NCBI RefSeq assembly: GCF_003014695.1
Contig: NZ_PYAS01000001.1
Span: forward strand, 1-64,000
Source of the DNA: Dyadobacter jiangsuensis
GTDB taxonomy: Bacteria > Bacteroidota > Bacteroidia > Cytophagales > Spirosomataceae
Length of the DNA stretch: 64,000 nt
Reading direction: 5' to 3'
The notes beneath the pieces are model-generated. The model was given only the letters and a program-made list of their open reading frames with translations. It ran no database searches and was not told the origin of the DNA. The first letter of the stretch is position 1, and every line of letters begins with the position of its first letter. Of the stretch, positions 17,316 to 41,272 are shown piece by piece. The position numbers and the translations under genes are program-made.

Positions 17316-18548
17316 TTGGAAAACTTCAAAGAAAAATTTATGAAATGGCTCAGAACGCTGGGGCCGGGGATGATCACCGCGGCGCTCGTGTTCGGGCCCA
17401 GCAAGCTCACTATTACTTCCAAACTCGGCGCGGTGTACGGCTACTCGCTATTGTGGATTGTAGTTGTTGCGATTTTCTTCATGGGCGTATTCACGGCCAT
17501 GTCTACACGCATCGGCGTGGCTACGAACCAGTCGTTGCTGGCTTCCGTGAAGCAGAAATGGGGCAAGCCGGCATCGGTCGCGATGGGTATCGGGGTATTC
17601 CTGGTTACGACCTCATTCCAGGCGGGCAATTCGGTGGGCGTGGGCATTGCGGTAGGGGAGTTGTTCCATACTTCGCCGGTGCCCTGGATTATCGGGCTCA
17701 ATGCGTTCGGGATCAGTCTGTTGTTTTTTCGGAGCTTTTATAAAGTGCTGGAAAGTGTGATGGTCATCCTGATTTTTGTGAAACTGTTCTCGTTCGCGAC
17801 CACATTCTTCTGGGCCAATCCCGATCCGGTAGAAATAGCGAAAGGCTTCACCACACCCACGATTCCCGAAGGTTCGACGGGCCTGATCATTGCCTTTATC
17901 GCCTCCTGCTTTTCGATCGTCGGCGCGTCGTACCAGTCCTACCTTATTCAGGAGCGTATCCGAATCAACCCCGAATTGCGCGGCACGAAGAACGACAGCA
18001 CCACGGGCATTATCCTGCTCGGCGGCATGTGCAGCATTGTGATCATCTGTGCGGCGGCGGTGCTGCATCCGAAAGGCATTGCCGTGAACTCGGCAACCGA
18101 TATGGCCAAGGCGCTGGAACCGATTTTCGGCAGCAATGCATCCACTTTATTTCTGATCGGACTCTTCGGTGCGGCATTCTCGTCGCTGATCGGCAATGCG
18201 TCGGTAGGCGGCACTTTGCTGGGCGATGCGCTGGGTCTTGGAAGTAATTTTAGTTCAAAATCAGTGCGTTACCTGGTGGCGCTGGTGATGGTGATCGGCG
18301 CGACGATCGCGATCCGGTTTGGCAAGTTGCCGCTCGAACTGATCGTCTTCGCACAGAGCGTCACGATTTTTGTGGTTCCATTTATCGGGACCGCATTGTA
18401 TATGGTGGGCAACGACCGCAAGATCATGGGTGATAAGGTCAACAGCCCGCTTGTGAAAGTGGTGGCGGGGATCGGGCTGATCATCGTGTTCAGCCTGGCT
18501 ATCATTAACAGTAAAGAATTATTTTTCAACAATCCGCTTTTTAAATAG
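17316..18548 (+). CDS. Nramp-superfamily transporter lacking the canonical metal-binding motifs
   Basis: 410 residues by TTG 17316, or 402 by the in-frame ATG 17340 (MKWLRTLGPG), which is at least as likely. About 11 membrane helices. The GPG at 16-18 and the overall layout are Nramp-like. Yet the helix-1 metal motif DPGN is replaced by GPSK (27-30), and the helix-6 MPHN-type motif is replaced by a QSYL stretch after GA at 203-204. Manganese or iron transport by the known mechanism is therefore unlikely. It is the first gene of an operon with an NAD epimerase 2 bp behind, then a DHDPS-family aldolase and a sugar dehydrogenase. I infer that it may move an organic or other substrate of this pathway. 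Confidence 0.75.
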   Translation: MENFKEKFMKWLRTLGPGMITAALVFGPSKLTITSKLGAVYGYSLLWIVVVAIFFMGVFTAMSTRIGVATNQSLLASVKQKWGKPASVAMGIGVFLVTTSFQAGNSVGVGIAVGELFHTSPVPWIIGLNAFGISLLFFRSFYKVLESVMVILIFVKLFSFATTFFWANPDPVEIAKGFTTPTIPEGSTGLIIAFIASCFSIVGASYQSYLIQERIRINPELRGTKNDSTTGIILLGGMCSIVIICAAAVLHPKGIAVNSATDMAKALEPIFGSNASTLFLIGLFGAAFSSLIGNASVGGTLLGDALGLGSNFSSKSVRYLVALVMVIGATIAIRFGKLPLELIVFAQSVTIFVVPFIGTALYMVGNDRKIMGDKVNSPLVKVVAGIGLIIVFSLAIINSKELFFNNPLFK

Positions 18549-18550
18549 AA

Positions 18551-19567
18551 ATGAACGGTAGTAAATCTTTTGAGGAACAATGGCTTAGCCCGTCCGAGGC
18601 GTTGGTCGAGGATATGAAGCGTATCGAAGGCGACATTATGATCCTCGGTGCGGGTGGGAAAATCGGCCCGAGCATAGCGCGGCTCACCATGCAGGCCATC
18701 GAACGGGCCGGTCTGGATAAGCGCGTGATCGCCGTGTCGCGATTCAGCGAACCAGGGCTGGTGGAAGAACTGAATGCGGAAGGCATTGAAACCATCGTTG
18801 CGAACATTCTCGACGATTCACAATTGCAGGACCTGCCGGAGGTTGAAAACGTGCTCTACCTGGCCGGACAGAAATTTGGGACGTCCAACAATGAGCCCTA
18901 CACCTGGGCGATGAACACCTACCTGCCGGGACGTGTGGCGGAGAAGTTCCGCAAATCGCGCATTGTGGTGTATTCGACGGGCAACGTGTACCCATTCACG
19001 CCCGTGGGCTCGGGCGGGGCCACGGAGGAAATGCGCACCGACCCGGTAGGGGAATATGGGCAGTCGTGTCTTGGGCGCGAGCGGATGTTCCAGTACTTTT
19101 CATCGGTTTACGGCACACCGATCCTGCTTTACCGGCTGAACTACGCGATCGATTTCAAATACGGCGTGCTGCTGGAAGTGGCCAAGTCGGTGCTGAACGG
19201 CAAGCCGCTGGATGTGACGATGGGGCATGTGAACGTGATCTGGCAGGGAGATGCCAATGAAATGGCGATCCGCTCGCTGCTGCATTGCGACTCGCCTTCG
19301 AAGACCCTGAACATTACCGGCCCAGAGACGGTCTCACTACGCTGGCTGGCCGGGGAGTTCGGACGTATATTCAACATCGAACCGCAGTTTACCGGCGAGG
19401 AGCAGGCTACCGCGCTTTTAAGCAATGCGGCCGAATCGTTCCGATTGTTCGGCTATCCGCGCACGACTTTGAAGCAAATGATCGGCATTACCGCGCAATG
19501 GCTGCTCGAAGGCGGCAAGACGATCAATAAGCCGACGCATTTCCAGGAGCGGAAGGGGCAGTTTTAA
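18551..19567 (+). CDS. NAD-dependent epimerase/dehydratase family protein
   Basis: 338 residues. Rossmann motif GAGGKIG at 33-39, then LYLAGQKFG, VVYSTGNVYPF and LNITGPETVSLRWLAGEFG in the C-terminal part, all typical of extended SDRs. The active-site tyrosine motif reads EYGQSCLGRE: Tyr169 is kept but the usual lysine of YxxxK is Cys173. This would change the catalytic acid-base system; either a different residue takes over or the activity is unusual. The start is 2 bp after the transporter gene, so the two are translated together. It probably oxidises or epimerises a sugar or sugar acid in the pathway. Confidence 0.82.
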   Translation: MNGSKSFEEQWLSPSEALVEDMKRIEGDIMILGAGGKIGPSIARLTMQAIERAGLDKRVIAVSRFSEPGLVEELNAEGIETIVANILDDSQLQDLPEVENVLYLAGQKFGTSNNEPYTWAMNTYLPGRVAEKFRKSRIVVYSTGNVYPFTPVGSGGATEEMRTDPVGEYGQSCLGRERMFQYFSSVYGTPILLYRLNYAIDFKYGVLLEVAKSVLNGKPLDVTMGHVNVIWQGDANEMAIRSLLHCDSPSKTLNITGPETVSLRWLAGEFGRIFNIEPQFTGEEQATALLSNAAESFRLFGYPRTTLKQMIGITAQWLLEGGKTINKPTHFQERKGQF

Positions 19568-19569
19568 TC

Positions 19570-19660
19570 GGGGAAGAAGGGGAGGATGGAGGAAAGGGAG
19601 GAAAGGGAAGAAAGGGAGGATGGAGGAAAGGGAGGAGGGGAGTTTGGGGGGAAGTAGTTG
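19570..19660 (+). repeat. Polypurine tract with an internal 23-bp repeat
   Basis: Almost pure A/G sequence fills the gap between the epimerase and aldolase genes. A 23-base block starting GGGAGGATGGAGGAAAGG occurs at 19580-19602 and again at 19614-19636. Repeated AAAGGGAGG units lie between. It could form triplex or G-quadruplex structures in DNA or RNA. It is the only long gap (120 bp) inside the first four genes of the operon. Confidence 0.8.
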
Positions 19661-19687
19661 TTGTTTAATGTTGTTAATGAATAGGTT

Positions 19688-20749
19688 ATGTTGAGAGAAG
19701 ATATCAAAAGGCTGCTTTTTGAAGGGACGGTGATACCGGCGCATCCGCTGGCGTTGACGCACGAATTGCAGCTCGACGAGCAGAAGCAGCGCGGATTGAC
19801 GCGCTATTATATGGCCAGCGGGGCCGGTGGCGTGGCGGTTGGTGTGCATACCACGCAGTTTGAGATCCGCGATCCCGAGGTGAATTTGTTTGAAAAAGTG
19901 CTGGCAATAGCGGCAGATGAAGTCGATAAGGCGGCATTGAAACGCCCGTTTATCAAAGTAGCCGGCATTTGCGGACTGACGGTGCAGGCTTTGAAGGAGG
20001 CTGAAATCGCCGTGAACCTGGGCTATAACCTGGGGCTTGTCAGCATGGCGGCATTCAAAACGCAGCCGGAATCCGAGATTATTGAGCACGTTAAAAAGGT
20101 TGCCGAGGTGATTCCCGTATTTGGGTTTTACTTGCAGGCGGCCATCGGCGGGCGCGTTTACAGCTACGAGTTCTGGCAGCAGTTTGCCGAGATTCCCAAT
20201 GTGTACGCCATTAAAGTGGCCGCATTCAACCGCTACCAGACCCTGGATGTTGTTCGGGCGGTGGCGCATTCGGGCCGTCGCGATGAAATTGCCCTTTACA
20301 CGGGCAACGACGACAATATCGTAGCCGACCTTTTGACGCCCTATCGTTTTGAAATAGAAGGAAAAACAATCGAAAAGCGTTTTGTGGGTGGCTTGCTCGG
20401 GCATTGGGCGGTTTGGACGGAAAAGGCCGTGGAATTGCTCGTGACAGTAAAACAGACGCTCACCACCGATTATGCCGATGCGGCTTCGATGCTCGCCACG
20501 AATATTGCCGTTACGGACATGAACGCCGCGATTTTCGATCCGGCCAATGCGTTTCACGGCTGCATTACCGGCGTGCACGAGGTACTGCGCCGCCAGGGCC
20601 TGATGGACGGCATCTGGACGCTGAACCCCAAAGAAACGCTTTCGCCGGGGCAGTTTGAAGAAATCACGCGTGTGATCGACGCCTATCCGCAACTCGTCGA
20701 CGATACGTTCGTGGCGCGCTTTCTTGAAAATGAAGTAAATGTGATCTGA
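19688..20749 (+). CDS. Dihydrodipicolinate synthase family protein (DHDPS/N-acetylneuraminate lyase superfamily)
   Basis: 353 residues, a little longer than the usual 290-310. The fold motifs are GAGGVAVGVHTTQFEI near residue 45-60, Tyr148 in VFGFYLQ (place of the DHDPS proton-relay tyrosine) and Lys176 in VYAIKVA, the expected Schiff-base lysine. The family makes or cleaves a 2-keto acid by aldol chemistry. In this operon of sugar-oxidising enzymes it is more likely to cleave a 2-keto-3-deoxyaldonate to pyruvate and an aldehyde than to make lysine. Its stop overlaps the ATG of the next gene (TGATG), so the two are coupled. Confidence 0.82.
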   Translation: MLREDIKRLLFEGTVIPAHPLALTHELQLDEQKQRGLTRYYMASGAGGVAVGVHTTQFEIRDPEVNLFEKVLAIAADEVDKAALKRPFIKVAGICGLTVQALKEAEIAVNLGYNLGLVSMAAFKTQPESEIIEHVKKVAEVIPVFGFYLQAAIGGRVYSYEFWQQFAEIPNVYAIKVAAFNRYQTLDVVRAVAHSGRRDEIALYTGNDDNIVADLLTPYRFEIEGKTIEKRFVGGLLGHWAVWTEKAVELLVTVKQTLTTDYADAASMLATNIAVTDMNAAIFDPANAFHGCITGVHEVLRRQGLMDGIWTLNPKETLSPGQFEEITRVIDAYPQLVDDTFVARFLENEVNVI

Positions 20750-22269
20750 TGGATTTCTTCCGTTCCATACCGGTTTGGATAGCTGCCTTTGCGGCGGTAT
20801 TCGTGACAGGCGGTCGCGATGCGACAGCGCCGCAACGTCCCGTTGAACCTGATTCTTTGCCCCTTTCCGTGCACGTGCACGTAGTGGCTTCCGGGCTGAA
20901 TGTACCTTGGGAAATGGTCTGGGGACCGGATAACTGGATCTGGTATACCGAGCAGAGCGGCAGTATCAGCAGGCTCAATCCGAAGACAGGAGAGAAGCAG
21001 CTGCTCGTGAAAATCGACGAGGTGTATCGCCACCGCTCACTAGGCCTGCTGGGAATGGCTTTGCATCCTGATTTTCCTCGGAAACCCTATGTGTATGTGG
21101 ATTACACCTGCAAAAAGGATTCGGCTATTGCAACAAAGCTGGTGCGGTTTACTTACCGCCAGAACCGGCTTGCCGACCCGCTGACGATGCTGGAAATCCC
21201 TGCTCACACCGGCCATAATGGTTCACGGATCGTGATTTCACCTGACCGTAAACTGATGTTCGCTACCGGGGACGCGGTTACCATCACCAACGCCCAAAAT
21301 ACCGGCTCACTGAACGGCAAAGTGCTCAGAATGAATCTGGATGGAAGCGTGCCGGCCGATAACCCGATCAAGGGAAGCCTTGTATGGTCCTGGGGGCACC
21401 GCAACATCCAGGGGCTGGCCTACGGGCGGAACGGCATTCTGTACAGCTCCGAGCACGGCGATGCGGTCGAAGACGAACTGAATATCATCCGTAACGGCCG
21501 GAATTACGGCTGGCCGAAGGTCGAAGGTTTTTGCGATCAGCCCAATGAAAAGGCATTCTGTGACTCGGTGAAAGTAACAGAGCCGGTCAAAGCCTGGACG
21601 CCCACGATCGCCCCTGCGGGAATCGCTGTTTACGAAGGCAGGCTGTTCCCTGAATGGAAAGGCGCGATCCTGCTCACTACTTTGAAGGAAGCCGATTTGC
21701 GGGTGCTGAAAACGGACGCGAAAGGCGAAAGCATTGTGTCGGAAAGTATTCCGCTGGATGCGAGCTATGGCCGTCTGCGTGCGGTGTGCGTGGCTCCCGA
21801 CGGCAGCATTTACGTTTCGACCAGTAACCGCGACTGGAATCCCGGCAGCGGTTTCCCAAAACCGGAGGATGACCGCATCCTGCGCATTACGCGCGGTACA
21901 CAGGCGGACCTGCTCGCCCGCAAAGCGCAAAGCCAGGCCGTGACCGATAACGTATCGAATGGCGCCAGGCTTTATCGCCAGTATTGTGCTTCCTGCCACA
22001 AGCCCGACGGCAAAGGCGTCGCCGGTACTTTTCCGACCCTGCACGGCACGCAGCAGGTGAAAGATAAAGACCAATTTGTACAAATTATGCTGAATGGCCT
22101 TTCGGGGAAGATAACTGTCCAGGGCGAAGAGTTCGATCAGCATATGCCCGCGATGAGCTTTCTGCCCGATGAGTCCATTGCCGAGATCGGGACTTATGTA
22201 CGGCAGTCTTTCAACCAGGACCTCGACCCCGTCAGTGTCAGCGATGTTGCTAAGACGCGAATCAAGTAA
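20749..22269 (+). CDS. PQQ-dependent sugar dehydrogenase (glucose/sorbosone dehydrogenase type) fused to cytochrome c
   Basis: 506 residues with a signal peptide (IPVWIAAFAAVFVTGG). Residues 45-385 are a soluble quinoprotein glucose/sorbosone dehydrogenase propeller with NVPWEMVWGPD, AHTGHNGSRIV, GHRNIQGLAY and EHGDAVEDELNII. Residues 400-490 are a class I cytochrome c with CASCH at 413-417 and a Met ligand (Met466 or Met469). It would oxidise an aldose in the periplasm and pass electrons straight to its own heme and on to the respiratory chain. Its start overlaps the aldolase stop by one base. In context it supplies lactones to the pathway. Confidence 0.88.
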   Translation: MDFFRSIPVWIAAFAAVFVTGGRDATAPQRPVEPDSLPLSVHVHVVASGLNVPWEMVWGPDNWIWYTEQSGSISRLNPKTGEKQLLVKIDEVYRHRSLGLLGMALHPDFPRKPYVYVDYTCKKDSAIATKLVRFTYRQNRLADPLTMLEIPAHTGHNGSRIVISPDRKLMFATGDAVTITNAQNTGSLNGKVLRMNLDGSVPADNPIKGSLVWSWGHRNIQGLAYGRNGILYSSEHGDAVEDELNIIRNGRNYGWPKVEGFCDQPNEKAFCDSVKVTEPVKAWTPTIAPAGIAVYEGRLFPEWKGAILLTTLKEADLRVLKTDAKGESIVSESIPLDASYGRLRAVCVAPDGSIYVSTSNRDWNPGSGFPKPEDDRILRITRGTQADLLARKAQSQAVTDNVSNGARLYRQYCASCHKPDGKGVAGTFPTLHGTQQVKDKDQFVQIMLNGLSGKITVQGEEFDQHMPAMSFLPDESIAEIGTYVRQSFNQDLDPVSVSDVAKTRIK

Positions 22270-22275
22270 TCCATT

Positions 22276-22291
22276 TGCCCGGTTTCGGGCA
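22276..22291 (+). promoter_or_regulatory. Hairpin between the sugar dehydrogenase and SusC genes
   Basis: TGCCCG-GTTT-CGGGCA forms a 6-bp stem with a tetraloop just after the dehydrogenase stop and has no T-run. It may slow 3' decay of the upstream message or separate expression levels rather than terminate. TATATTTA at 22310-22317 is a near-match to a -7 box, so SusC may also have its own promoter. Confidence 0.4.
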
Positions 22292-22335
22292 CGCGCACGT
22301 CACCAATTGTATATTTAGTTAAACCCAAATACCCT

Positions 22336-25300
22336 ATGATCCAAATGAAGTTTTACCTGAAAAGGCCTCTGCTGGCGATGATGCTGATGCTGGCCTTGTG
22401 TATGTCGGGCCGGTTACAGGCCCAGGATGCCGGCAATGTGTCGGGAACGGTAGTGGATAGCGTTGGCAACGCCACTTTACCCGGAGTAAGCGTGGTTATC
22501 AAAGGTACGAGCAAAGGTGTCACTACGGATGTGGATGGCAAATTCCAGATCCAGGCTGCACAAGGCGAAGTACTGACGTTCTCGTTCATCGGCTACAAAA
22601 AAGTCGAGGTGCCGGTGGGCAATCAAACGGTGATTAGGGTGGTGCTGCGGCAGGACAATACCGTTCTGGACGAGCTGGTGGTAGTTGGTTATGGTACGGT
22701 GAAGAAAAGTTCGGTGACTGCATCTGTGGCAAAGGTCGAGAACACCGTCCTTGATCAGATTCCGGTCGGCAGGCCAGAATCGGTACTGGCGGGGCGGCTT
22801 GCGGGGGTGAACGTAACCCAAAACAATACCTCGCCGGGCAGCGCGCCGTTGATCCGTATCCGCGGTGCGAGCTCCATCGACGCGGGTAACGACCCGTTGG
22901 TCGTAATTGACGGTTTTCCCGGTGGGAGCCTCGGCAGCGTGAGTACCAACGACATCGAGTCAATAGAGGTTTTGAAGGACGCTTCTGCGGCGGCCATCTA
23001 CGGTTCACGCGGCGCGGGCGGCGTGATTATCGTTACGACTAAAAAGGGTAAATCGGGTAAGGCTAAATTCAATTTCAATGCATATGCCGGTGTGGCCAAT
23101 GCCAAAGGGCATAAGGACTGGATCACGGGGCAGGAGTATTACGATTACGCGGTACGTTACCAGAACCGCGAGTACAAATGGATTGGCGGCGACACCAGTA
23201 TCCCGGTGTGGGGCGACTCCCGCCGGCCGAATGCCTACCAGGTGAGCGACGTTTTGAAAAACGGTAACAATGTGGTTTGGGAAGACGCAGTCATGCAAAG
23301 CGCTGCCATTCAGAACTACAATTTGTCGGTGGGTGGAGGAAACGACCATGTACGGTATTACGTATCGGGTACGCTGAAAGATGAGAAAGGGACTTTGAAA
23401 AACACCTGGTACAAGAACTACGGCTTGCGTGCAAATGTGGACGTGACCGTCAATTCGGTGGTGAGCCTGGGTTTCATGCTGAACCCGTCATATTCGAAAC
23501 GCCGCTTTGCATCTGCGGACATTAACAACTATGTGAAGTTCCCCAGCTTCGTGGCTGTGCAAAATCCGGACGGTACCTATCCGAACGCGCGTTCGTATTG
23601 GGGCGCGGTGGTGAGCGGGCAGGCCAATCCGATGGCCACGCTGGACGGCAGCTACTATTTCGGTACGACCGTTAACAACCTGGGCGAAGCGTTTATCAAC
23701 CTGAACCTGGCCAAAGGCCTTTCATTCCGGTCTTCGCTGAGCACCAACCTCGCCTCGAACACCACCGATCGCTTCCAGGCCTCCTGGGCGACCAGTACCG
23801 GTCTGAACTCCGGTTCGCAGGCGCTGAGCTCGACTACCAGCATTGCCAATGAGAACGTTTTGAGCTACACCAACACTTTCAAAGGCATTCACAATGTGAG
23901 TGCGATCGCCGGTGCTTCCTACCAGAAATATAATTCGAGCAGCTCCTCGCTGGCGGCGGTGAACGGTTCTTTCAATAATGATATCATCCATACGCTCAAT
24001 AATGCGATCATCAACCCTTCGGCTTCGGCCTCGTCCAGGTCGCAATGGGGATTGATTTCTTATTTCAGCCGGGTGAATTATGGGTTTAAGGACAAATATC
24101 TGCTTTCTGCCTCGATCCGTACCGACGGTAGCTCGCGGTTCGGCCCCGACAACAAATGGGGGTACTTCCCGTCGGCCTCCGTGGCATGGCGCATTTCGCA
24201 GGAGGATTTCATGAAAAATGTCCGCCCCGTAAGCGAGTTGAAACTGCGCGCGAGCTACGGAGCTACCGGTAACTTCAACATCGGCGATTTTGAATACCTC
24301 GGACAAATCGGCGATGTATACTACTCGCCCAACAATACCCTCACCAAAGGCCAGACTCAAATCTCTTACGGTAACAATAGCCTGAGCTGGGAGAAAACCA
24401 AAAGCTACGATTTCGGGCTGGAACTGGGGCTGTTTCGCAACCGGGTGAACCTGGTGCTGGATTATTATGACAAACGCACGAGTGGGCTGCTTTACAATGT
24501 GTCGATCCCATCGGTGACCGGCTTTACCAGCTCGTTATCGAATGTCGGCAGTGTGAGCAACAAAGGTTTTGAAATTGAACTGACCACAAAAAACCTGGTA
24601 GGGGAGTTCAAATGGGAGACTTCATTCAATATGGCCAGGAACGTGAACAAAGTCGAAGACCTGGGTGGCGTACAGGAACGCATTACCACCGATACTTATG
24701 GAATGGGCTGGATTCTGCGTTTGGGGCAGCCGATGTTCTCCTATTATGGCTACAAGATCGTAGGCGTGCTGCAAAATGCGGAGGATGTGAAGAACTCGCC
24801 GGTCCTGGCAGGATCGGTGCCGGGTAACCCCAAGTTCCAGGATGTGAACGGCGACGGCCAGATCACCTCGGCGGATAAAGTGATTTTGGGCAACTTTCAG
24901 CCCAAAGCATATTTCGGTTTGATCAACAACTTCGCTTATAAGGCATTTGACTTGAGCATTGCCATGCAGGCCTCCGTGGGTGCCAAAATGTACAATTTTG
25001 AAAACGAATACTACCAGGGCGCGCTACTGGGAGCGATGCGCCGCTCGCTGGTAGACACGCAGTGGTGGTCGGAAGCCGAGCCGGGCAATGGCAGGGTACC
25101 CGCGAGCTCATTGAGCAAGCTCACTTACCAGTCCTCGTCGGATGCCTACATCGAGGACGCTTCATTCCTGGCCGTCCGCAATATCAACCTCGGTTATACG
25201 GTGCCTTCTACTGTTTCGCAAAAGCTGCGTTTGTCGGGTCTGCGCGTGTATGCCTCGCTCGCGAATCCCTTCATGTTTACCAAAAAAGGTTTTCACGGCT

Positions 25301-25419
25301 ACAATCCGGAGGGTTACACCGGCGGTGAAATTGCCGGAACGGGCAGTAAGCCAGGCTTTAACAACGGAGCGACGCCGATCAACCGTGTGTATACGCTGGG
25401 TCTCAATTTCAACTTTTAA
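22336..25419 (+). CDS. SusC/RagA family TonB-linked outer membrane protein
   Basis: 1027 residues. Signal peptide ending in LQAQD, then the carboxypeptidase-regulatory-like domain (GTVVDSVGNATLPGVSVVIKGTSKGVTTD...), a TonB-box-like stretch, the plug domain (PLVVIDGFPGG, IESIEVLKDASAAAIYGSRGAGGVIIVTTKKG) and a C-terminal barrel ending in LNFNF. It imports oligosaccharides or glycosides across the outer membrane with its lid SusD, whose gene starts 17 bp downstream. It belongs to the plus-strand operon that begins at the Nramp-like gene. The ligand cannot be predicted. Confidence 0.95.
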   Translation: MIQMKFYLKRPLLAMMLMLALCMSGRLQAQDAGNVSGTVVDSVGNATLPGVSVVIKGTSKGVTTDVDGKFQIQAAQGEVLTFSFIGYKKVEVPVGNQTVIRVVLRQDNTVLDELVVVGYGTVKKSSVTASVAKVENTVLDQIPVGRPESVLAGRLAGVNVTQNNTSPGSAPLIRIRGASSIDAGNDPLVVIDGFPGGSLGSVSTNDIESIEVLKDASAAAIYGSRGAGGVIIVTTKKGKSGKAKFNFNAYAGVANAKGHKDWITGQEYYDYAVRYQNREYKWIGGDTSIPVWGDSRRPNAYQVSDVLKNGNNVVWEDAVMQSAAIQNYNLSVGGGNDHVRYYVSGTLKDEKGTLKNTWYKNYGLRANVDVTVNSVVSLGFMLNPSYSKRRFASADINNYVKFPSFVAVQNPDGTYPNARSYWGAVVSGQANPMATLDGSYYFGTTVNNLGEAFINLNLAKGLSFRSSLSTNLASNTTDRFQASWATSTGLNSGSQALSSTTSIANENVLSYTNTFKGIHNVSAIAGASYQKYNSSSSSLAAVNGSFNNDIIHTLNNAIINPSASASSRSQWGLISYFSRVNYGFKDKYLLSASIRTDGSSRFGPDNKWGYFPSASVAWRISQEDFMKNVRPVSELKLRASYGATGNFNIGDFEYLGQIGDVYYSPNNTLTKGQTQISYGNNSLSWEKTKSYDFGLELGLFRNRVNLVLDYYDKRTSGLLYNVSIPSVTGFTSSLSNVGSVSNKGFEIELTTKNLVGEFKWETSFNMARNVNKVEDLGGVQERITTDTYGMGWILRLGQPMFSYYGYKIVGVLQNAEDVKNSPVLAGSVPGNPKFQDVNGDGQITSADKVILGNFQPKAYFGLINNFAYKAFDLSIAMQASVGAKMYNFENEYYQGALLGAMRRSLVDTQWWSEAEPGNGRVPASSLSKLTYQSSSDAYIEDASFLAVRNINLGYTVPSTVSQKLRLSGLRVYASLANPFMFTKKGFHGYNPEGYTGGEIAGTGSKPGFNNGATPINRVYTLGLNFNF

Positions 25420-28895: not shown

Positions 28896-29771
28896 TTACC
28901 TGACGAAATAATGGGGCTCATATCCCTGAAATGGAGTGTTTTTGCAAACAAAAAGCGAACCGGCCAGTGGCTGCTGTTGCAGCTCCTTGTCAGTCAGGCC
29001 GATGCTAGCCGAGGTAATGTACAGGTCACGTAAGCCCGCCCCGCCAAATGTGCAGGAGCTTACCTGACTTACCGGTAACGCGATTTGATCAAGGATGGTA
29101 CCGGTCTCGGGGGAGACCCGGATAACTTTGCCGCCACCCCACAAGGCAATCCAGAGCATACCTTCCGTGTCGATCGTCATCCCATCGGGAATGCCGTTTT
29201 GCCGTGGTATTTCCAGGATTGTACGGGAGTTGCAGATTTTGCCTGTGGCCACATCGTAGTCATAGGCAACCACATTTTGGGCCGGCGAATCGATAAAGTA
29301 GAACGTTTGTTGGTCCGGGCTCCATGCGAGCCCGTTGGAGCAGCCGACTCCGGAGATCTTTGCCGATACCGAACCGTCCCTGTCCAGACAGTAGAGTTTA
29401 CCTGCCCCCGGCTCGTTTTGAACCGACATGGTTCCTGCCCAAAAACGTCCGGCAGGATCACATTTGCCATCATTGAAACGGTTACCGGGTAAATGCCGTT
29501 CAGGGTCTGCGAGCGGAACTTGCGTTTTGTCCCGCAGATTGATCAGGAAAAAACCGTTTTGCAGGGCTGCTACCAGCATGCCTGTCTCTTCCAGCGCTAT
29601 TGATCCTGTTTGTTGACCTGTGAAATACTTGGAGTGGCTACCCGAATCAACACAGAGCTGGTGAATATTGCCCTCGGCGACATCAACCCATAACACGCTT
29701 TGACTTGCCACGTCCCATACGGGTCCCTCTCCTAAATGACAGCGGAAACTACCCGCAACTTCCCAATTCAT
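28896..29771 (-). CDS. SMP-30/gluconolactonase/LRE family protein
   Basis: 291 residues forming a six-bladed propeller: HLGEGPVWD with metal ligand Glu15, NRFNDGKCDPAGRFWAGTM, the Asn ligand in CSNGLAWSPD, and the Asp ligand in GIPDGMTID. The family hydrolyses aldono-lactones to aldonic acids with a divalent metal. There is no signal peptide, so it acts in the cytoplasm. It lies between two GntR genes on the same strand. The promoter region contains a TATATTTG -7 box and a GTATGC pseudo-palindrome (29812-29826), so it is probably a member of the GntR regulon. It would provide the second step of an oxidative sugar pathway. Confidence 0.9.
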   Translation of the reverse strand: MNWEVAGSFRCHLGEGPVWDVASQSVLWVDVAEGNIHQLCVDSGSHSKYFTGQQTGSIALEETGMLVAALQNGFFLINLRDKTQVPLADPERHLPGNRFNDGKCDPAGRFWAGTMSVQNEPGAGKLYCLDRDGSVSAKISGVGCSNGLAWSPDQQTFYFIDSPAQNVVAYDYDVATGKICNSRTILEIPRQNGIPDGMTIDTEGMLWIALWGGGKVIRVSPETGTILDQIALPVSQVSSCTFGGAGLRDLYITSASIGLTDKELQQQPLAGSLFVCKNTPFQGYEPHYFVR

Positions 29772-29881: not shown

Positions 29882-30523
29882 CTAATCAACACCTTCCAGC
29901 ACGGCAGCTTCGCCTCTAAGCAGGTGTTTGTTTAATAAAGCTTCGGCTGAATCCAGGTCGTTGGCTTTGATCGCTTCCAGGATTTGCCGGTGCTCTGTAT
30001 CGGTGAGCTCGTAGTCGTCCATGTGTGACTGGGCTTGTCCCAGTTTTTGATGAAAAAGGGGAATGTTACTAACCTGATACAACATTTTTAACTTCTCGTT
30101 TCCGGCACTGGCAATCAGCGTCTCGTGGAATTTGATATCGGCCTCACACGCGCCGCCAAGATACCCGCGCTGTATCATCGTAGAAAAGTCGTCGCAGATT
30201 TCTTCGAGTTTGGTGATCACCTGCGGGTCTCTGTTCTGCAAGATCAGTCTGAGCGCGCCAATTTCGAAAATTTGCCGCATCTGGCGTATTTCCTTGACGT
30301 CCTGAGCAGTGAGCGATTTGACGAAATAGCCGCCTTTCTCCCCGAAAACGATGAGTTCTTCCCCTAAAAGCCGGGTCAGCGCTTCACGGACAGATATCCG
30401 GCTGACTTCCATTTTTTTAGCCCAGGCGTCTTCTTTCAGCCTGCTTCCGGCCGAGAGTTGATTGGAAAGGATTTTTCGCCTCAGTTCAACGTATACCTTG
30501 CTGGCCTGTGAGTCCTGTTTCAT
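29882..30523 (-). CDS. GntR/FadR (FCD) family transcriptional regulator 2
   Basis: 213 residues, plainly paralogous to regulator 1. It shares RRKILSNQLSAGSRLKEDAWAKKMEVSRISVREALTRLLGEELIVFGEKGGYFVKSL and the FCD part EADIKFHETLIASAGNEKL with TDTEHRQIL and LLNKHLLRG. The recognition helices differ slightly (VSRISVREAL against VNRAAVREAL), so the two may read related but not identical sites. The palindrome GTGTATACAAAA lies 2 bp before its ATG, strongly suggesting autoregulation. It is 75 bp behind the symporter gene. Confidence 0.92.
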   Translation of the reverse strand: MKQDSQASKVYVELRRKILSNQLSAGSRLKEDAWAKKMEVSRISVREALTRLLGEELIVFGEKGGYFVKSLTAQDVKEIRQMRQIFEIGALRLILQNRDPQVITKLEEICDDFSTMIQRGYLGGACEADIKFHETLIASAGNEKLKMLYQVSNIPLFHQKLGQAQSHMDDYELTDTEHRQILEAIKANDLDSAEALLNKHLLRGEAAVLEGVD

Positions 30524-30598: not shown

Positions 30599-32170
30599 TC
30601 AGGCAAAACGAATATAGAAAAACAGTACGGCAGCTGTAATAAGGGCCCACCAGTAAAACGGGTCGCGAATGCCGCGCTGCTGGTCACGTTCTTCCGGCAG
30701 GAGGCGAAGGCTTTCACGGTTCCAGATCAGCCCGGAGAGCTCGGCTTCCGGCTTGGGCTTGGTCATCATACTCACCACCAAGCACAGCAGCATACATATC
30801 CAGAACACGATGCCCGTTCTGTTGAAAAACGGCATTTGCGGGAAGGAGAATTCAATCAGCAGCGACAGTGGGATGGTCAAAATTCCGGCAGTCAATGAAC
30901 CTGCCTGCGTGGTTCGTTTCCAGAAGATTCCCATCAGAAACATGGTTGCGATCCCCGGCGTGAACAATCCATACGCATTCATCAGGTAAATGAAAACCGG
31001 TTTATCGGAATAGTTCATCAACAGTCCCGTACAGAGGATACCCGCCACCACAATGAGCGTTCCGGCGACACGCCCGAAGCGAACGGCCTGCTGGTCGGAG
31101 GCATTTTTTGCGAAATGGGGCAGGTATACATCGACGGTCAAGATCGTCGTGCAGGAATTGATCGCGCCGGACAAATGCGACATGACGGCGGAAATCAGTC
31201 CGGCCATGACCAGCCCCACCAGCCCCGAAGGTAGCAGCTTGGCTACGAGCATCGGGAAAAGCAGGTCGGGGTTATCCAGGTGCGGAATCAGCCGGGGAGC
31301 GACGAGCGCGGGTATGGTAATGATAAGTGGCACCAGGAATTTGAGATAATCCCCGAAAATGACGCCCATCCGCGCATGCCATTCGTTCTTGGCGGCCAGC
31401 ACGCGCTGCACGATAAACTGGTTGGTGGCGCAATAGAAAATACTGATACAGAGCAGGCCGCCGAGGTACATCGTCCAGGGGAAATCAGGGTCGTCCGAAG
31501 GCAGGATAAGCTCCCAGTCCTTGGTGGTTGCCAGCACGGACTCTACGCCCCCGGTAGCATTCAGCGTCGCGATCGTCAGGATAATGCCACCGGCCACGAG
31601 CACGACCAATTGCAGCATTTCCGTCCATATTACCGCCCGTAAGCCTCCCAGAATAGTGTAGAGGCCGGTGAGCAGCGCCAGTAAAATAATGCTGACGATC
31701 ACCGGAATATCCAGCAGCGCGTGGAGCGAAAGCGCCCCTAGGTACAGTACGGCCGCGATCTCCACAAAAACGTAAGTCATTAAAATCAATACCGAATACG
31801 TGCTCCGGGCGGCGGTGCCGAATCTTTTATGCAGAAATTCAGGAATGGTATAAAACCCGTTGCGGATGTAGAAAGGCAGGAAAATCCAGAGCAGCGCATT
31901 GAAGCCGATCAGGATCGCGCCCCATTCCATCGCGATCACGACGAAGCCCCGGTTATAGGCGGCGCCCATCGCACCCACCAGGTGGTGACTGCTGATATTG
32001 GAAGCGATGATGCTCCCGCCGATCATCCACCACGGCAGCTTGTCGCCGGCCAGGAAATAGTCGCGTTTGGTCTGCTTGCCTTTTCGGGAGGCGTACAGGC
32101 CAAGCAGTAGAATACTCAATATGTATAGGCCAAAAATGACGGCATCCGCCAGGGTCAGGTTTATATTCAT
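30599..32170 (-). CDS. Sodium:solute symporter (SSS) family transporter
   Basis: 523 residues with about 14 membrane helices. Family motifs: KRDYFLAGDKLPWWMIGGSIIASNISSHHLVGAMGAAY in the first helices, FYTIPEFLHKRFG, GGLRAVIWTEMLQL, and SHLSGAINSCTTILTVDVY in helix 8. It imports a sugar, sugar acid or other solute with sodium across the inner membrane. It is the last gene of the minus-strand operon starting at SusC 44377. Its ATG overlaps the stop of the upstream hydrolase by four bases. Confidence 0.92.
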   Translation of the reverse strand: MNINLTLADAVIFGLYILSILLLGLYASRKGKQTKRDYFLAGDKLPWWMIGGSIIASNISSHHLVGAMGAAYNRGFVVIAMEWGAILIGFNALLWIFLPFYIRNGFYTIPEFLHKRFGTAARSTYSVLILMTYVFVEIAAVLYLGALSLHALLDIPVIVSIILLALLTGLYTILGGLRAVIWTEMLQLVVLVAGGIILTIATLNATGGVESVLATTKDWELILPSDDPDFPWTMYLGGLLCISIFYCATNQFIVQRVLAAKNEWHARMGVIFGDYLKFLVPLIITIPALVAPRLIPHLDNPDLLFPMLVAKLLPSGLVGLVMAGLISAVMSHLSGAINSCTTILTVDVYLPHFAKNASDQQAVRFGRVAGTLIVVAGILCTGLLMNYSDKPVFIYLMNAYGLFTPGIATMFLMGIFWKRTTQAGSLTAGILTIPLSLLIEFSFPQMPFFNRTGIVFWICMLLCLVVSMMTKPKPEAELSGLIWNRESLRLLPEERDQQRGIRDPFYWWALITAAVLFFYIRFA

Positions 32171-33543
32171 TCTCGGAGGATTCTTTGAGCGATGTCAATG
32201 GTTTTTTCGATGAGCAGTTCCAGGGAAGCCGCTTCGAATGGGGTCTGCCAGACGGCATAGGTGTCTTCGGTGTACAAACTTTCAGGGGGCAGATAGCCCG
32301 CATAACCGTTCACAATGTTGATCACGGCCACTGCTTTTCCATCCAATTCGGCGCGTAGCTGCTGCTGGAAAGCGGAATAGGCCTCGTTGGGTTGGCCGAC
32401 GAGCAGGGAGTCACCCAGGCGCCATATCCATAACGGCATATGGCTGGTGCCGCCGTCGCCAACGGTCTTTCGGATTCCCCTTTTTCGCCATAGCCTTTCC
32501 CGCGTCACGGCGTCGGCGCAGGCGGCCCACTCCGCTTCAATTTCGGCCAGCGAGGGCATTTCTTTGAGGGTGAAAGGGATGTCGGTCAGGGCATATGCGA
32601 CGGTTCCGGGAGGCGTTACCGCGGTTTGGGCCCAGATACCCAGCGGTGCTCCCGATTCCACGGCTCCCTGAAAACTGAGGCCGGTGGCCGCGGGCAGCAT
32701 ATCTTCCAGCGTCGACAGCACGGCATGGCCTAGCTGTCGGCCGTAGCGGTCGGCGACAGCCGTGTCTCCCACATATTGGTCTTTCGGGGAAAGCTCACCC
32801 GACGCGCCTTGCAGAAACAAGGTAGGGGCTCCGGTGGTGGTTTCCACCATTTCACGCATCGCGCCAATGTAGTCGGGCGATATCAGCTTGTTGTCCCAGG
32901 CCAGGGTGGTTGGATGGCACGCGTAGTTGACGATCGTGGCGATAATCTGGTGCTGGGAGTCGGTAATCCTTCCTACCAGCAGCGTATCGTCGGCAGGCTG
33001 GCCGGGGTTCATCGCCACCAGCAGGCGGTCCTTTCCCTGCTCCGGCAAATCGCGGTTGACGGCCAGCGTACATTTTCCGTAGTTCCAGGCCAGCGTAGCG
33101 GTAGTTTCAGCGGTCATCGCCTGGCGAATGGCGGCGATGGATTTGTCACGGACTTCGGCCAAATAGGGTTCGATCAGGTGCCCGCCGGGTTTGCCGGCAT
33201 CCTCGCGGAAAAGGCTCGGGCCGGCATGCGTATGCGACAAACAGAACATCAGGTTTTCGACGGGAAGCCCAGTTTTCGATAATATCCCGTTCCGCAGAAA
33301 CTTTTCGTCATCGGCGCTTTTCCACCACCCCAGGTCCGCCCCGATCAGCACCAGCGGGTCGGCCATTCCGGGCGCCCTGAATGTGATACAGGTCAAGTAC
33401 AGTGGTTTGTGCACGCCTTCGGCGGTTTCGTGCGTGGCGGCACCCCAGTTTTTTGCATAAATACCCGCCGGAGGGGTAATGACTGCCTGCGATACGCCGA
33501 TCAGTCCTGAAAAGGAAGGGTTGGCTACAATAGGGTAGGACAT
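32167..33543 (-). CDS. Neutral/alkaline ceramidase-like hydrolase
   Basis: I take the ATG at 33543 (MSYPIVANPSFSG..., 458 residues) since it lies 8 bp after the SDR stop; the longer frame overlaps the SDR gene. Motifs of the neutral ceramidase N-terminal domain are visible: SQAVITPPAGIY, FCLSHTHAGPSLF, NYACHPTTLAWDN and LFLQGASGELSPKD. The two His motifs bind zinc in ceramidases, which cleave amide bonds. There is no signal peptide, so it is cytoplasmic, unlike secreted ceramidases. Within a sugar-acid operon I infer that it cleaves an amide or ester of an imported sugar derivative. Confidence 0.75.
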   Translation of the reverse strand: MSYPIVANPSFSGLIGVSQAVITPPAGIYAKNWGAATHETAEGVHKPLYLTCITFRAPGMADPLVLIGADLGWWKSADDEKFLRNGILSKTGLPVENLMFCLSHTHAGPSLFREDAGKPGGHLIEPYLAEVRDKSIAAIRQAMTAETTATLAWNYGKCTLAVNRDLPEQGKDRLLVAMNPGQPADDTLLVGRITDSQHQIIATIVNYACHPTTLAWDNKLISPDYIGAMREMVETTTGAPTLFLQGASGELSPKDQYVGDTAVADRYGRQLGHAVLSTLEDMLPAATGLSFQGAVESGAPLGIWAQTAVTPPGTVAYALTDIPFTLKEMPSLAEIEAEWAACADAVTRERLWRKRGIRKTVGDGGTSHMPLWIWRLGDSLLVGQPNEAYSAFQQQLRAELDGKAVAVINIVNGYAGYLPPESLYTEDTYAVWQTPFEAASLELLIEKTIDIAQRILRE

Positions 33544-33551
33544 AGATGTTC

Positions 33552-34319
33552 TCAGGTTAATAGGGAAAGGCCGCCATCCATGAGCAGCGTGCTGCCGGTC
33601 ATGTGGACATTGTCGGGGTGGCACAGGTGCAATACCTGCCTGGCTACTTCACCGGTGGTAATGAGTTTTTTGACAGGTACGCGTTGCCGGGCCTGTTCGG
33701 CGAGTTCCGGTGCGGTTTTCCAGATGGAGGCGCTCAGACCGGCCTCCACGTAGCCGGGAGCGATCTCGTTGACCAGGATCTGGTGCGGCGCCAGCTCTAA
33801 CGCCATGCATTTGCACAGCATCCGCACGCCGGCTTTGGACACCGAGTAGGCGGGCAGGTTAGGATGTACCGCATGGGCTGCCCAGCTGCCCACGAACAGG
33901 ATCCTGCCCGGGATCTGCGCGGCAATCATACGGGACGCTGCGGTGCGGCTCAGGTAGAAAGAGCCGTTGAGGTTAATATCGATCTCGTTCGCCCACTGCT
34001 GGTCGCTCACCGTTTCGATACCCGCTATGGTGACTGTGGCGGCATTGGAAATGACAATCTGCGGGGTACCCAGCGCGTTTTCCACCGCTCCGATCCAACC
34101 GGCCACCTCCTCCGGGCGCGCCACATCCACCTGCCGGTAATGAGCCTGCACGCCTTGCGACGTGATTTCTGCAAGTAACGCTTCGGCTTCCCGGGCAGGT
34201 CTGATATCCCCGATGGCGACCGACGCCCCTTCGGAAGCGAACGCGAGGGCAATGGCCTTGCCGATGTCGCCCAGCCCGCCGCTGATCACGACCACCTGTT
34301 CTTGAAAGATTTTATTCAT
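33552..34319 (-). CDS. SDR family oxidoreductase
   Basis: 255 residues. Cofactor motif GGLGDIGKAIA, acidic GDIRPAREAE after strand 2 (suggests NAD+), SNAAT, catalytic Ser in FVGSWAAH and YSVSK. The C-terminal GSTLLMDGGLSLL closes the fold. A cytoplasmic sugar or sugar-acid dehydrogenase is likely, because it sits between the dehydratase gene and the ceramidase-like gene in a tightly packed operon (gaps of 32 and 8 bp). Confidence 0.88.
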   Translation of the reverse strand: MNKIFQEQVVVISGGLGDIGKAIALAFASEGASVAIGDIRPAREAEALLAEITSQGVQAHYRQVDVARPEEVAGWIGAVENALGTPQIVISNAATVTIAGIETVSDQQWANEIDINLNGSFYLSRTAASRMIAAQIPGRILFVGSWAAHAVHPNLPAYSVSKAGVRMLCKCMALELAPHQILVNEIAPGYVEAGLSASIWKTAPELAEQARQRVPVKKLITTGEVARQVLHLCHPDNVHMTGSTLLMDGGLSLLT

Positions 34320-34351: not shown

Positions 34352-35530
34352 TTACCAGTCACCTACGCTTCCGTCCTTGTAAAAACTGCGCTGCAATACC
34401 TCTTGCTGGAACGGATGCCTGGCTACTTCCTTTTCGTCGATCTCGATTCCCAGTCCGGGCAATGCGTTCGGTTTTACGATGCGCCCTTTTTGTTCCACCA
34501 CAAATCCTTCCTGTACGACATCCTGCCGCCATTCTACATCGTTGTGAACACTTTCGCAAATGATGTACGAAGGGGCCGAAAATCCAAATTCTATCGAAGC
34601 CGCCGTGCTCACAGGCCCCTGCGGATTGTGCGGCGCGATGGATACCCGATAGGCATCGGCCAGCGCGGCAATCTTGCGGACTTCACTCAATCCCCCGCAA
34701 TGGGTAATGTCCGGCTGGATCACACTTACCGAACGCTTTTCGAGCATATCCCTGAATGCGTGGATGCCCGTTAGCCGCTCGCCGCTGGCGATCGGCGTTT
34801 TGACCGCGCGCTGGATCAGGGCAATATCCTCCATGGTTTCGGGCCAGCATGGCTCCTCGAAAAAGTACAGGCCGTAAGGTTCCAGGGCCTTTGCGAAGAG
34901 CATTCCCATGCGCGGGGAAGGCCGCGCGTGGCAGTCGACCATGATGTCGATCGAATCGCCGACTGCCTCGCGCATGGCGGCTACGCATGCTTCCGCGTAA
35001 TGCACGGGCTGCAAGCCTTCCAAAGGAGCCGTTTCGGGCACTGCCATCGACTTGAAGGCCGTAAATCCGTCCTCGACGGCCTTCTGAGCGAGCTCACCAA
35101 AACGTTTGGCGTCGTCTCGCCGCGTTTCGTAGAAATCTTCCATTTTGCCGCCACCCAGGTGACAATACAGCCTGATGTAATCCCTCACGCGGCCGCCCCA
35201 CAGTTCGTGGCAGGGAACGCCATGTATTTTACCCAGGATATCCCACAAAGCGATATCGATGCCGCTGATGGCCGTGCCCCGCACGACACCGTTACCGTGC
35301 CAGAAGTGCTGGCGGTACATCATTTGCCACAGGTACTCGATCCGGCGGGGATCTTCGCCGATGAGCAGTTGCGACAGGTCTTCGATCGCGCCGACTACCG
35401 AGCGGGTATGCCATTCGAGCGTAGCTTCGCCCCAGCCCCAGAGGCCGGGCTGATCGGTGATGATTTTAACAAATATCCAGTTGCGCATGCGGGCATGGCA
35501 AACTTTGGTTTCAATGGCGGTGATTTTCAT
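34352..35530 (-). CDS. Mandelate racemase/muconate lactonizing (enolase superfamily) dehydratase, galactonate dehydratase-like
   Basis: 392 residues. N-terminal capping domain ([20 protein letters not shown]), then the barrel. Metal ligands appear in [11 protein letters not shown] (Asp), FFEEPCWPE (Glu) and SGERLTG (Glu). The acid-base part is [10 protein letters not shown] (Asp) and [10 protein letters not shown] (His). The layout is that of D-galactonate dehydratase and related aldonate dehydratases, which remove water to give a 2-keto-3-deoxyaldonate. The exact sugar acid is not predictable. It is 19 bp behind the aminotransferase gene and would follow the SMP-30 lactonase in the pathway. 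Confidence 0.87.
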
Positions 35531-35549
35531 CTGAACTATCTATTGTATT

Positions 35550-36902
35550 TTACTGTGCGACAACCCCTTTGAACAAGCTGCTCACCACCTCGCGGGTTTT
35601 GTCGAGGGTGATCTCGATATCCTTTTCGGTGTGGGCGAAGGATATGCTGCCCTGCTTGATCGGCAGCGGGAAGTTGTAAATGCCCTTTTCGATCAATGCG
35701 AGCCGATAGGCTTTGTCGAGCGCAAAATCGTGGTTGTTCAGGATATCGTGCAGGTCCGCCGGTGCGTGATCCATCAGGTAAAGGCAATATGCGGAGCCCT
35801 GGCGAGCGAGGTAATAGGGCTGGTCGGTTTCGGAGAATATGGCGTTCAGCCCGTCTTCGAGCATCGTACCGAGCCTGTTCACATGGCCGTACACGTCATG
35901 CTCGGCAGACGCGAGCTTTTTCAGTGTCGCTATGGCCGCCATGGTCGTCAGCGGAAATGCATTGTAGGTGCCCGCGATCAGCACCCGGTGTTCTTTTTCG
36001 GGGTGAACGAAGTAATCCATGTACTTTTTCTTCCCGGCGATTACACCGAGCGGAAACCCGTTGGCAATGGCTTTCCCGAAAGTGCTCAGATCGGGCGTCA
36101 CGCCGCAAATGCTCTGGTAACCGCCCAGCGCATGGCGGAAGCCGGTTTTGACCTCGTCGAAAATGAGCAGGAAGTTGTGCGCATCGGCCAGTTTTCTCAA
36201 CCCTTCGAGGTAGCCCGGTTTCGGTTTGACGATCCCGATGTTTTGCAGCAGCGGTTCGAGAATGATACAGGCCACCTCATACCGCTTGATGATGTATTCG
36301 ACCGAAGCCAGGTCGTTATAGTTGACGATGTGTACCAGGGATTTATGGACATCCGGGATACCCGCCGACAGCGAGTCGAACGGATATTCGCCTGGGCTTA
36401 CGCGCGGGCCTACGTCGGCGAGGCTGCTGATCACATTGCAGGCCACATCGTTGTGCCAGCCGTTATAGCCGCCCTGCATCACGATCACGTGCTGTTTTTT
36501 GGTCACCGCGCGGGAGATCCGGATCGCATGGTAGGTCGCTTCGGAGCCGGTGGTTGTGATTTGCAGGCTCTCGGCGGTAGGGACGCTTTGGATGAACATT
36601 TCGGCGAAAATGCCTTCCAGGTCTGTCGGTCCGGCGCCCATCAGCACGGCGTCGCGTTCCAGCGTTTCGCGTACGGCGCGGTTAATATCGGGGTCGTTGT
36701 GCCCCAGGAAGGAAGCGGCAAAGCCAGCCTGATAGTCAATGTACTCGTTGCCGTCCACATCCCATACGCGGCTTCCATTTCCTTTGGTAAAACATATATT
36801 CGGGTCCGACTTGCGGTTGAGTGACACAACCCCTCCCGGAATGTAATTTTCATTGTGTTTTAAAATTGCAGATGATTTGCTCAGCGTGCTCATATCCTTC
36901 AC
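35550..36902 (-). CDS. Class III pyridoxal-phosphate aminotransferase (glutamate-1-semialdehyde aminomutase-like)
   Basis: 450 residues. PGGVVSLNRKSDPNICFTKGNGSRVWDVDGNEYIDYQAGFAA, TTGSEATYHAIRISRAVT (phosphate loop), LLIFDEVKTGFR (Asp for the pyridine nitrogen) and STFGKAIANGFPLGVIAGKK (Schiff-base Lys) define class III. It resembles HemL but is longer, and it sits in a catabolic operon, so heme synthesis is unlikely. Transfer or removal of an amino group on an amino sugar or related intermediate is a fair guess. It is 60 bp behind the lyase gene and 19 bp before the dehydratase gene. Confidence 0.85.
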   Translation of the reverse strand: MKDMSTLSKSSAILKHNENYIPGGVVSLNRKSDPNICFTKGNGSRVWDVDGNEYIDYQAGFAASFLGHNDPDINRAVRETLERDAVLMGAGPTDLEGIFAEMFIQSVPTAESLQITTTGSEATYHAIRISRAVTKKQHVIVMQGGYNGWHNDVACNVISSLADVGPRVSPGEYPFDSLSAGIPDVHKSLVHIVNYNDLASVEYIIKRYEVACIILEPLLQNIGIVKPKPGYLEGLRKLADAHNFLLIFDEVKTGFRHALGGYQSICGVTPDLSTFGKAIANGFPLGVIAGKKKYMDYFVHPEKEHRVLIAGTYNAFPLTTMAAIATLKKLASAEHDVYGHVNRLGTMLEDGLNAIFSETDQPYYLARQGSAYCLYLMDHAPADLHDILNNHDFALDKAYRLALIEKGIYNFPLPIKQGSISFAHTEKDIEITLDKTREVVSSLFKGVVAQ

Positions 36903-41261: not shown

Positions 41262-41272
41262 GTCAGTAAGGA

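Follow-up and report, generated by a model that had tools for sequence, protein, structure and literature searches.

Routes of the De Ley-Doudoroff type and oxidative uronate routes are built from a dehydrogenase, a lactonase, an enolase-superfamily dehydratase and an aldolase of the dihydrodipicolinate synthase (DHDPS) superfamily, and they share these with the gene cluster that is the subject of this report, located in a 64,000-nucleotide stretch of DNA from Dyadobacter jiangsuensis (contig NZ_PYAS01000001.1, here C1, positions 1 to 64,000, from a genome of 8.27 Mb; the whole stretch is called the window). Beyond that type, the cluster encodes an aminotransferase, a ceramidase-like hydrolase and a protein resembling short-chain dehydrogenases/reductases (SDR) that lacks the catalytic lysine. 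Heparin and heparan polysaccharide utilisation loci (PULs) with a PL21 heparinase II presumably likewise combine SusC/SusD proteins with that lyase; unlike them, the window shows neither a sulfatase nor a GH88 family when its 37 scanned open reading frames (ORFs) are matched to Pfam, and its lyase is not seen in most loci related to the dehydratase module described below.

The cluster begins with a gene for an Nramp-related protein. In the excerpts of the papers cited here, Nramp-related proteins without the DPGN and MPH motifs are described as paraphyletic (PMC12873925) and as an 'orphan' outgroup (PMC10606218), and the outgroup may link evolutionarily the carriers of non-metal substrates and metal carriers (PMC4072509). 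The NRMT clade, with the motif DxxG-TxxA/T, moves Mg2+ (PMC8806188). Two members of PF01566 are encoded in 5-oxoprolinase operons, that is, with enzymes acting on organic substrates: PxpT of C. glutamicum, an Nramp family protein needed for growth on 5-oxoproline according to a 2026 report (PMC13274462), and YcsG of B. subtilis, an Nramp-related protein reported as a Mn2+ importer (PMC10448178). An Nramp within a sugar-acid cluster is already in print, since the legend to an Alteromonas alginate cluster (polysaccharide lyase, KdgF, DehR) labels one gene as 'Nramp, metal-ion transporter', in the excerpt as a metal carrier and with no claim of sugar transport (PMC6431674). Among the literature matches listed, no title proposes that an Nramp transports sugars or hydantoins, and the searches returned no literature on an Nramp together with a hydantoinase.

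The most interesting part of the cluster is the association of an Nramp lacking the metal site with a sugar-acid-type aldolase pair. The window protein shares its Pfam family with canonical SLC11/Nramp and NRMT proteins, but GPSK (residues 27-30) in transmembrane segment 1 (TM1) and SIV (200-202) in TM6 replace DPGN and MPH, and the NRMT motif is absent as well (GPSK / FSIV). A canonical copy in the same genome (L001), 26% identical to the window protein, has both DPGN and MPH intact. Relatives down to 58% identity keep GPSK/SIV with small changes, and more distant ones carry GPGS or GPGN together with a TM6 motif of the FSI or VSI type; the 16 closest Nramp loci, 78-100% identical, are all from Dyadobacter. 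In the tree, a clade of 20 rows of the GPSK/GPGS type is supported at 100/98, with two long branches inside it, and it holds haloarchaeal and rhizobial members together with the window protein. The canonical copy joins the GPGT group on a long branch (93/90, not starred), and long-branch warnings apply to this copy and to L039, L113 and L007. The window protein is set apart from the oxoprolinase-linked GPGT group, PxpT and YcsG themselves being compared by description, and it differs from these two in its sugar and aldolase neighbours, no HyuAB/PxpABC family being found among the Pfam matches of the cluster.

Directly downstream of the Nramp gene are an SDR-like gene (Epim) and a gene for a DHDPS-like aldolase candidate, and the three are referred to as the triad. 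In loci collected via the Nramp, which is thus present by construction, Epim and DHDPS come after it in all 19 relatives of at least 46% identity with enough DNA (L010-L026, L044, L045; L009, whose sequence ends inside Epim, was left out), and Epim is next to the Nramp in 27/27 further short loci, partly from the same genomes. Of the 19, 13 have a LacI-type gene ahead of the triad, seven have the PQQ-type sugar dehydrogenase family of the window (GSDH) downstream of it, and in six an enolase-superfamily gene follows DHDPS (Pfam of one), which speaks for a link of the triad to acid sugars. The locus collections overlap (L015 apparently equals G487 and L014 equals G467, judged from coordinates), so that the counts in this report are of loci and not of independent events. 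Of the plasmid records, 15 of the 29 that match the Nramp at E<=1e-20 and 9 of the 20 with a DHDPS-like match were opened, and neighbours in these and in haloarchaea were taken from the record annotation. Gfo/Idh, heparinase II/III or DHDPS genes are next to or near the GPGS/GPGN Nramp in 6/6 such opened records (haloarchaea and one rhizobium), and those of Halomontanus and Natrononativus have a homologue of the ceramidase-like hydrolase within 14 kb. None of the 17 distant PF01566 loci (L027-L043, 5.6-21 kb) matches any of the other 20 query proteins.

The Epim-DHDPS pair also exists without an Nramp, adjacent or one gene apart in 9/9 opened records from Bacillota, Planctomycetota, Actinomycetota and Pseudomonadota, and in seven of these a different transporter is encoded nearby (sugar ABC, other ABC, TTT or MFS). 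Most simply, the Nramp can be read as the component that imports the pathway substrate, and by analogy with PxpT and 5-oxoproline the window protein most likely imports an organic compound of the pathway. In 8 of the 9 plasmid records opened for the GPGT group, HyuA/HyuB genes come immediately after the Nramp gene; the exception, Pseudoalteromonas, has neither oxoprolinase nor sugar genes as neighbours. In G130 the gene is followed by PxpABC-type genes. Haloarchaeal GPGT Nramps are found in CopG-Nramp-HyuA-HyuB operons, most with a racemase-like/isomerase gene next (L117, L118, L129-L131, L133, L135, L136); these operons perhaps serve oxoproline/hydantoin uptake. L046 encodes a further PF01566 protein, longer at 575 aa (11837-13564), two genes from its GPGS Nramp, and Gfo/Idh genes surround both.

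In the window, a plus-strand operon (17316-28189) headed by the triad faces a minus-strand operon running from 44377 down to 28209. The preliminary description of this DNA had considered 17316-36902 and proposed a possibly complete non-phosphorylative sugar oxidation route split over two operons; all the families it named are encoded there according to Pfam/NCBIfam, and the cluster extends past 36902 to 44377, adding a heparinase-II-like lyase and a second SusC/SusD pair. Two SusC/SusD pairs, the lyase and a GH28-like gene make it a polysaccharide utilisation locus. On the plus strand the genes are tightly packed, with a gap of 2 bases between Nramp and Epim and an overlap of 1 base between DHDPS and GSDH. 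The order AT3-DgoD-SDR-Cerd-SSF, with the names given below, is referred to as core 2. The genes are:

17316-18548, plus: Nramp-related inner-membrane transporter without metal-site motifs (PF01566, 2.5e-68; motif alignments)
18551-19567, plus: Epim, extended-SDR/epimerase-like (NAD motif kept; Lys of YxxxK absent)
19688-20749, plus: class I aldolase candidate of the DHDPS/NAL superfamily (Lys176; subfamily without NCBIfam model)
20749-22269, plus: GSDH fused to cytochrome c (PF07995, 6.4e-80; PF13442, 2.4e-9)
22336-25419, plus: SusC-like TonB-dependent transporter 1 (Pfam)
25419-26897, plus: SusD-like lipoprotein 1 (Pfam)
26999-28189, plus: GH28/pectate-lyase-like beta-helix protein (PF12708, 3.9e-11; PF00295, 1.6e-7)
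28209-28835, minus: GntR/FCD regulator 1 (Pfam)
28896-29771, minus: SMP-30/gluconolactonase-family lactonase (PF08450, 1.3e-84)
29882-30523, minus: GntR/FCD regulator 2, GntR2 (L021 and L024 have homologues close to the triad)
30599-32170, minus: SSF sodium:solute symporter (PF00474, 3.4e-68)
32167-33624, minus: Cerd, ceramidase-superfamily hydrolase (true start probably near 33543)
33552-34319, minus: classical SDR with intact YxxxK (Pfam and motif check)
34352-35530, minus: DgoD, acid-sugar dehydratase of the enolase superfamily, D-galactonate-dehydratase-like (NCBIfam and residues)
35550-36902, minus: AT3, class-III GSAM-like aminotransferase dependent on pyridoxal phosphate (PLP) (Pfam/NCBIfam and residues)
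36963-39755, minus: heparinase-II-like (PL21-type) lyase (4e-100 to solved heparinase II)
39816-41261, minus: SusD-like lipoprotein 2 (Pfam)
41273-44377, minus: SusC-like TonB-dependent transporter 2 (Pfam)

Two of these gene calls need comment. An open frame of 424 codons (19418-20692, minus) runs opposite the conserved DHDPS-like gene, and automatic ORF calling may therefore choose the wrong strand there; the DHDPS genes of the window and of L018 were both masked by longer antisense ORFs in the ORF calls and are present by tblastn (the window gene by conservation). The listed GTG start of Cerd overlaps the SDR gene by 73 bases. In most homologues the match begins only at about residue 21-30, so the true start is probably the one given above.

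The cluster encodes the enzyme classes that make up a non-phosphorylative route, and active-site residues are kept where checked. DgoD passes the cut-off of the NCBIfam galactonate dehydratase model NF010624 (332.4 against 311), and its residues D199, E225, E251, H201 and H301-D274 are invariant in an 18-row alignment; we take these to be the D/E/E metal ligands, the histidine near the first ligand and the His-Asp dyad, spaced as in the E. coli DgoD. In AT3, K277 sits in an FGKA motif invariant over 18 rows and presumably is the PLP-binding lysine. The aldolase candidate has the TIM-barrel fold of the DHDPS/NAL superfamily, and K176, presumably the Schiff-base lysine of the class I aldolases in that superfamily, is invariant at the level of at least 97% in a 29-row alignment and strictly so in the 20-row alignment A1. 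It matches no NCBIfam family at E<=0.01, on which ground a named KDG/KDGal aldolase or KDA/KDGlucarate dehydratase subfamily was rejected. The proposed route is supported in its enzyme classes, but its completeness is not demonstrated, because the aldolase falls outside the NCBIfam families and the specificities are presumptive. Cerd scores below the gathering score of Pfam Ceramidase_alk (26.7 against 32.1 bits), and its His motifs are invariant in 19 rows, the positions of the zinc-binding histidines and of the serine nucleophile being those that we assume for the P. aeruginosa neutral ceramidase. A true ceramidase was rejected on this score and because the serine nucleophile is not kept in homologues. 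The lyase matches heparinase II (2fuq) at 4e-100, with GHxxE, the Tyr region and NHQHxD aligned (His/Glu/Tyr/His), which presumably include the catalytic His/Tyr/His of that enzyme.

Core 2 was examined in 17 loci (L066-L082, from 16 genomes) collected via Cerd, which is therefore present by construction; G033 contributed two of them, at opposite contig ends (L080, L081). The order AT3-DgoD-SDR-Cerd-SSF is kept in all 17, SMP-30 is also present in 13, and in 14 AT3 is preceded by a gene of the Gfo/Idh cluster whose product begins in a twin-arginine-like manner (judged by eye; Pfam of one member). Five loci (L068, L069, L070, L072, L074) have genes for a PhyH-family oxygenase and a sugar transporter between SDR and Cerd (Pfam for the L069 pair). 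An alphaproteobacterial genome found by AT3 has SSF, Cerd (43%) and AT3 (51%) adjacent; GSDH (28%) adjoins AT3, and a gene of the enolase superfamily (36% over 285 residues) lies nearby. Core 2 appears to be rare in that class, since the AT3 search of 289 genomes in the class of a Bradyrhizobium genome gave one match at E<=1e-90. Distant Cerd homologues (26-28%) in Nitratireductor and Devosia lie between NagA-like/NagB-like/SIS and sugar-ABC genes, and a Mesorhizobium AT3 homologue (48.5%) adjoins IlvD/Edd dehydratase, SDR, sugar-ABC and amidohydrolase genes. Together, the core-2, Cerd and AT3 neighbourhoods suggest that an acyl group and an amine are taken off before the sugar acid is dehydrated or while this happens, and gene content of this kind suggests that the substrate of core 2 may be an N-acylated amino sugar or amino-sugar acid. 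The literature searched yielded no description joining three of ceramidase, galactonate dehydratase, aminotransferase and SMP-30, and the matches listed for ceramidase, PUL and sugar-acid terms held nothing on this system.

Both modules occur joined in other genomes, in differing arrangements. In D. diqingensis (overlapping loci L024 and L141), one co-oriented run reads Nramp-Epim-DHDPS-GSDH-GntR-SusC-SusD-GH28-AT3-DgoD-SDR-Cerd-SSF-SMP30, and in bacterium A37T11 (L026) the order is AT3-DgoD-SDR-Cerd-SSF-Nramp-Epim-DHDPS-GSDH. The idea of one route split over two operons gains from these cases; as a strict unit it was rejected, because 12 of the 14 genomes with both modules have them on separate contigs or at least 0.7 Mb apart. 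These 14 were found among the 17 Cerd-positive genomes sampled; only the window itself shows Nramp and core 2 adjacent, in G566 the arrangement is compatible with that of the window across contig ends, and no Nramp lies within ~9 kb either side of Cerd in L066-L082. Accessory genes occur with either module. In the genome G882 (L019), with Nramp and core 2 on different contigs, an SMP-30 gene (57%) comes after DHDPS, and none is seen in the sequence around its core 2 (L142). A GntR2 homologue (73%) lies near the triad in L021, from a genome without Cerd, and another (71%) lies within the joined cluster of D. diqingensis. These moving genes are not random paralogues, as the next-best SMP-30 match in the genome carrying the window is 31% and partial. 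Over 200 Spirosomaceae genomes, the Nramp is found in 13/15 Cerd-positive genomes against 25/185 others (p 5e-9, uncorrected for kinship). Most likely, these are two modules, repeatedly joined, that form parts of related routes.

From the gene families, the checked active-site motifs, the conserved gene order and the joining of the modules elsewhere, all directly observed, we infer the chemistry of a pathway. We give about half our confidence to the view that this is one catabolic PUL-like cluster, of two modules, for an acidic glycan or glycoside probably containing N-acylated amino sugar. The SusC/SusD pairs and the heparinase-II-like lyase would provide the periplasm with oligosaccharides, and free sugar would be oxidised there to the lactone by the GSDH-cytochrome c protein. 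Products would then cross the inner membrane through the SSF symporter and the Nramp-related protein, the latter, having no metal site, taking a sugar acid or similar organic solute; its Lys30, which replaces the metal-binding Asn, is a candidate carboxylate anchor. In the cytoplasm, the ceramidase-like hydrolase would strip the acyl group, the class-III aminotransferase would remove the amine, and SDR and SMP-30 would finish oxidation and lactone opening. The galactonate-dehydratase-like enzyme would yield a 2-keto-3-deoxy acid, which the DHDPS-fold aldolase, with its partner Epim, may cleave to pyruvate and an aldehyde, while the two GntR regulators may sense an intermediate.

Several observations weigh against this scheme, among them the separability of the modules described above. 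None of the 29 Epim rows has the catalytic lysine of the SDRs, and the nucleophile position of Cerd is Ser or Ala among core-2 homologues. The window-type lyase is not seen in the sequence of core-2 loci except in the near-identical G566 and in A37T11, nor GH28 except in G566 and D. diqingensis. The more distant Nramp relatives L046 (33%; surrounded by Gfo/Idh genes) and L047 (28%; with PxpABC-type genes) show no match to Epim or to DHDPS over 20 kb, and the rhizobial Nramp has a DHDPS neighbour from a different subfamily, unmatched by the window protein at 1e-15. The main counter-evidence comes from YcsG, reported to raise cell Mn2+ in the excerpt of its source (PMC10448178), and it favours an Nramp-related protein that still imports Mn2+ or Mg2+ as a cofactor supply for the dehydratase, SMP-30 and the ceramidase-like hydrolase. 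Membership of PF01566, the NCBIfam model 'Nramp family divalent metal transporter', which calls the window protein at 90.4 against a cut-off of 50, the Mg2+ transport of the NRMT clade despite altered motifs and the label chosen by the Alteromonas authors fit that function too. A plain metal importer is nevertheless ranked lower, and we consider it improbable, because both metal motifs are gone throughout the clade while the same genome keeps its canonical DPGN/MPH copy, and because the Nramp is tied to one aldolase/SDR pair which elsewhere has ABC, TTT or MFS importers.

It could also be that two unrelated catabolic operons are neighbours by chance in this strain. Nramp and Cerd are on different contigs in 9 of the 14 genomes with both (adjacency across the gap being possible where a gene nears a contig end, e.g. 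G507 and G415) and 0.7, 2.2 and 4.8 Mb apart on the same contig in three more; furthermore, each operon has its own SusC/SusD pair. Also weighing against the one-cluster view, the Spirosomaceae association does not persist within the genus, where 7/7 Cerd-positive and 18/27 Cerd-negative Dyadobacter carry the Nramp (p 0.15), so that shared descent may explain it. Chance is still an unlikely account when the modules are joined in two other genomes in differing arrangements, when SMP-30 and GntR genes occur with either, and when GSDH adjoins AT3 in the alphaproteobacterial genome too. Another reading is that D-galactose/D-galactonate or a uronate is degraded by an ordinary route of the De Ley-Doudoroff type, to which aminotransferase, hydrolase and Nramp are accessories. 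This would agree with the NCBIfam assignment of the dehydratase, with its residue spacing, presumably that of the E. coli enzyme, and with the presence of GSDH, lactonase and aldolase classes. We doubt it, as AT3 accompanies Cerd and the dehydratase in every one of the loci found by Cerd, SSF, Cerd and AT3 recur in another phylum, and the aldolase is without an NCBIfam family. The preliminary description had set aside aminotransferase, ceramidase-like hydrolase and Nramp as fitting no pathway; this does not hold, and a plain galacturonate, galactonate, fucose or arabinose route is insufficient, because the first two travel with the dehydratase and the Nramp with the aldolase. What that description observed is confirmed, and its interpretation is partly supported.

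Together with the amino-sugar cluster preferred here, a wider proposal, which we are about equally prepared to see upheld or overturned, would make the GPGS/GPSK orphan Nramps (seen in Bacteroidota, haloarchaea and one rhizobium) importers of sugar acids or carbohydrates and assign 5-oxoproline/hydantoin-like lactams to the GPGT branch. The Epim-DHDPS pair would be the heart of an unrecognised sugar-acid pathway, spread over at least five phyla and fed here by the amino-sugar module of aminotransferase, ceramidase-like deacylase and galactonate-type dehydratase. Nramp-related proteins without metal motifs are named divalent metal transporters by default, and a clade tied to sugar-catabolic genes in bacteria and archaea offers a concrete class of organic substrates. 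Such a function would correct many annotations and bears on the origin of metal transport in the LeuT-type fold. The AT3/Cerd/dehydratase core and the pair of Lys-less SDR and aldolase likewise point to sugar-acid chemistry of which no description was found in the literature searched.

At the thresholds applied, the window as a whole yielded no tRNA or Rfam feature. Outside the cluster, two tandem DUF4394 proteins (4086-7367, minus) lie beside a hybrid two-component regulator (7424-10297). A DUF285 repeat protein (46572-48551, plus; 9e-113) with a Por secretion tail adjoins a leucine-rich-repeat-like protein (44738-46294). A tannase/feruloyl esterase family protein (53888-55480, minus; 4.3e-95) is followed by an aminoglycoside/streptomycin adenylyltransferase-like gene (55721-56605, plus; PF04439, 2.1e-102), which is located between this tannase-family gene and an RND efflux set.

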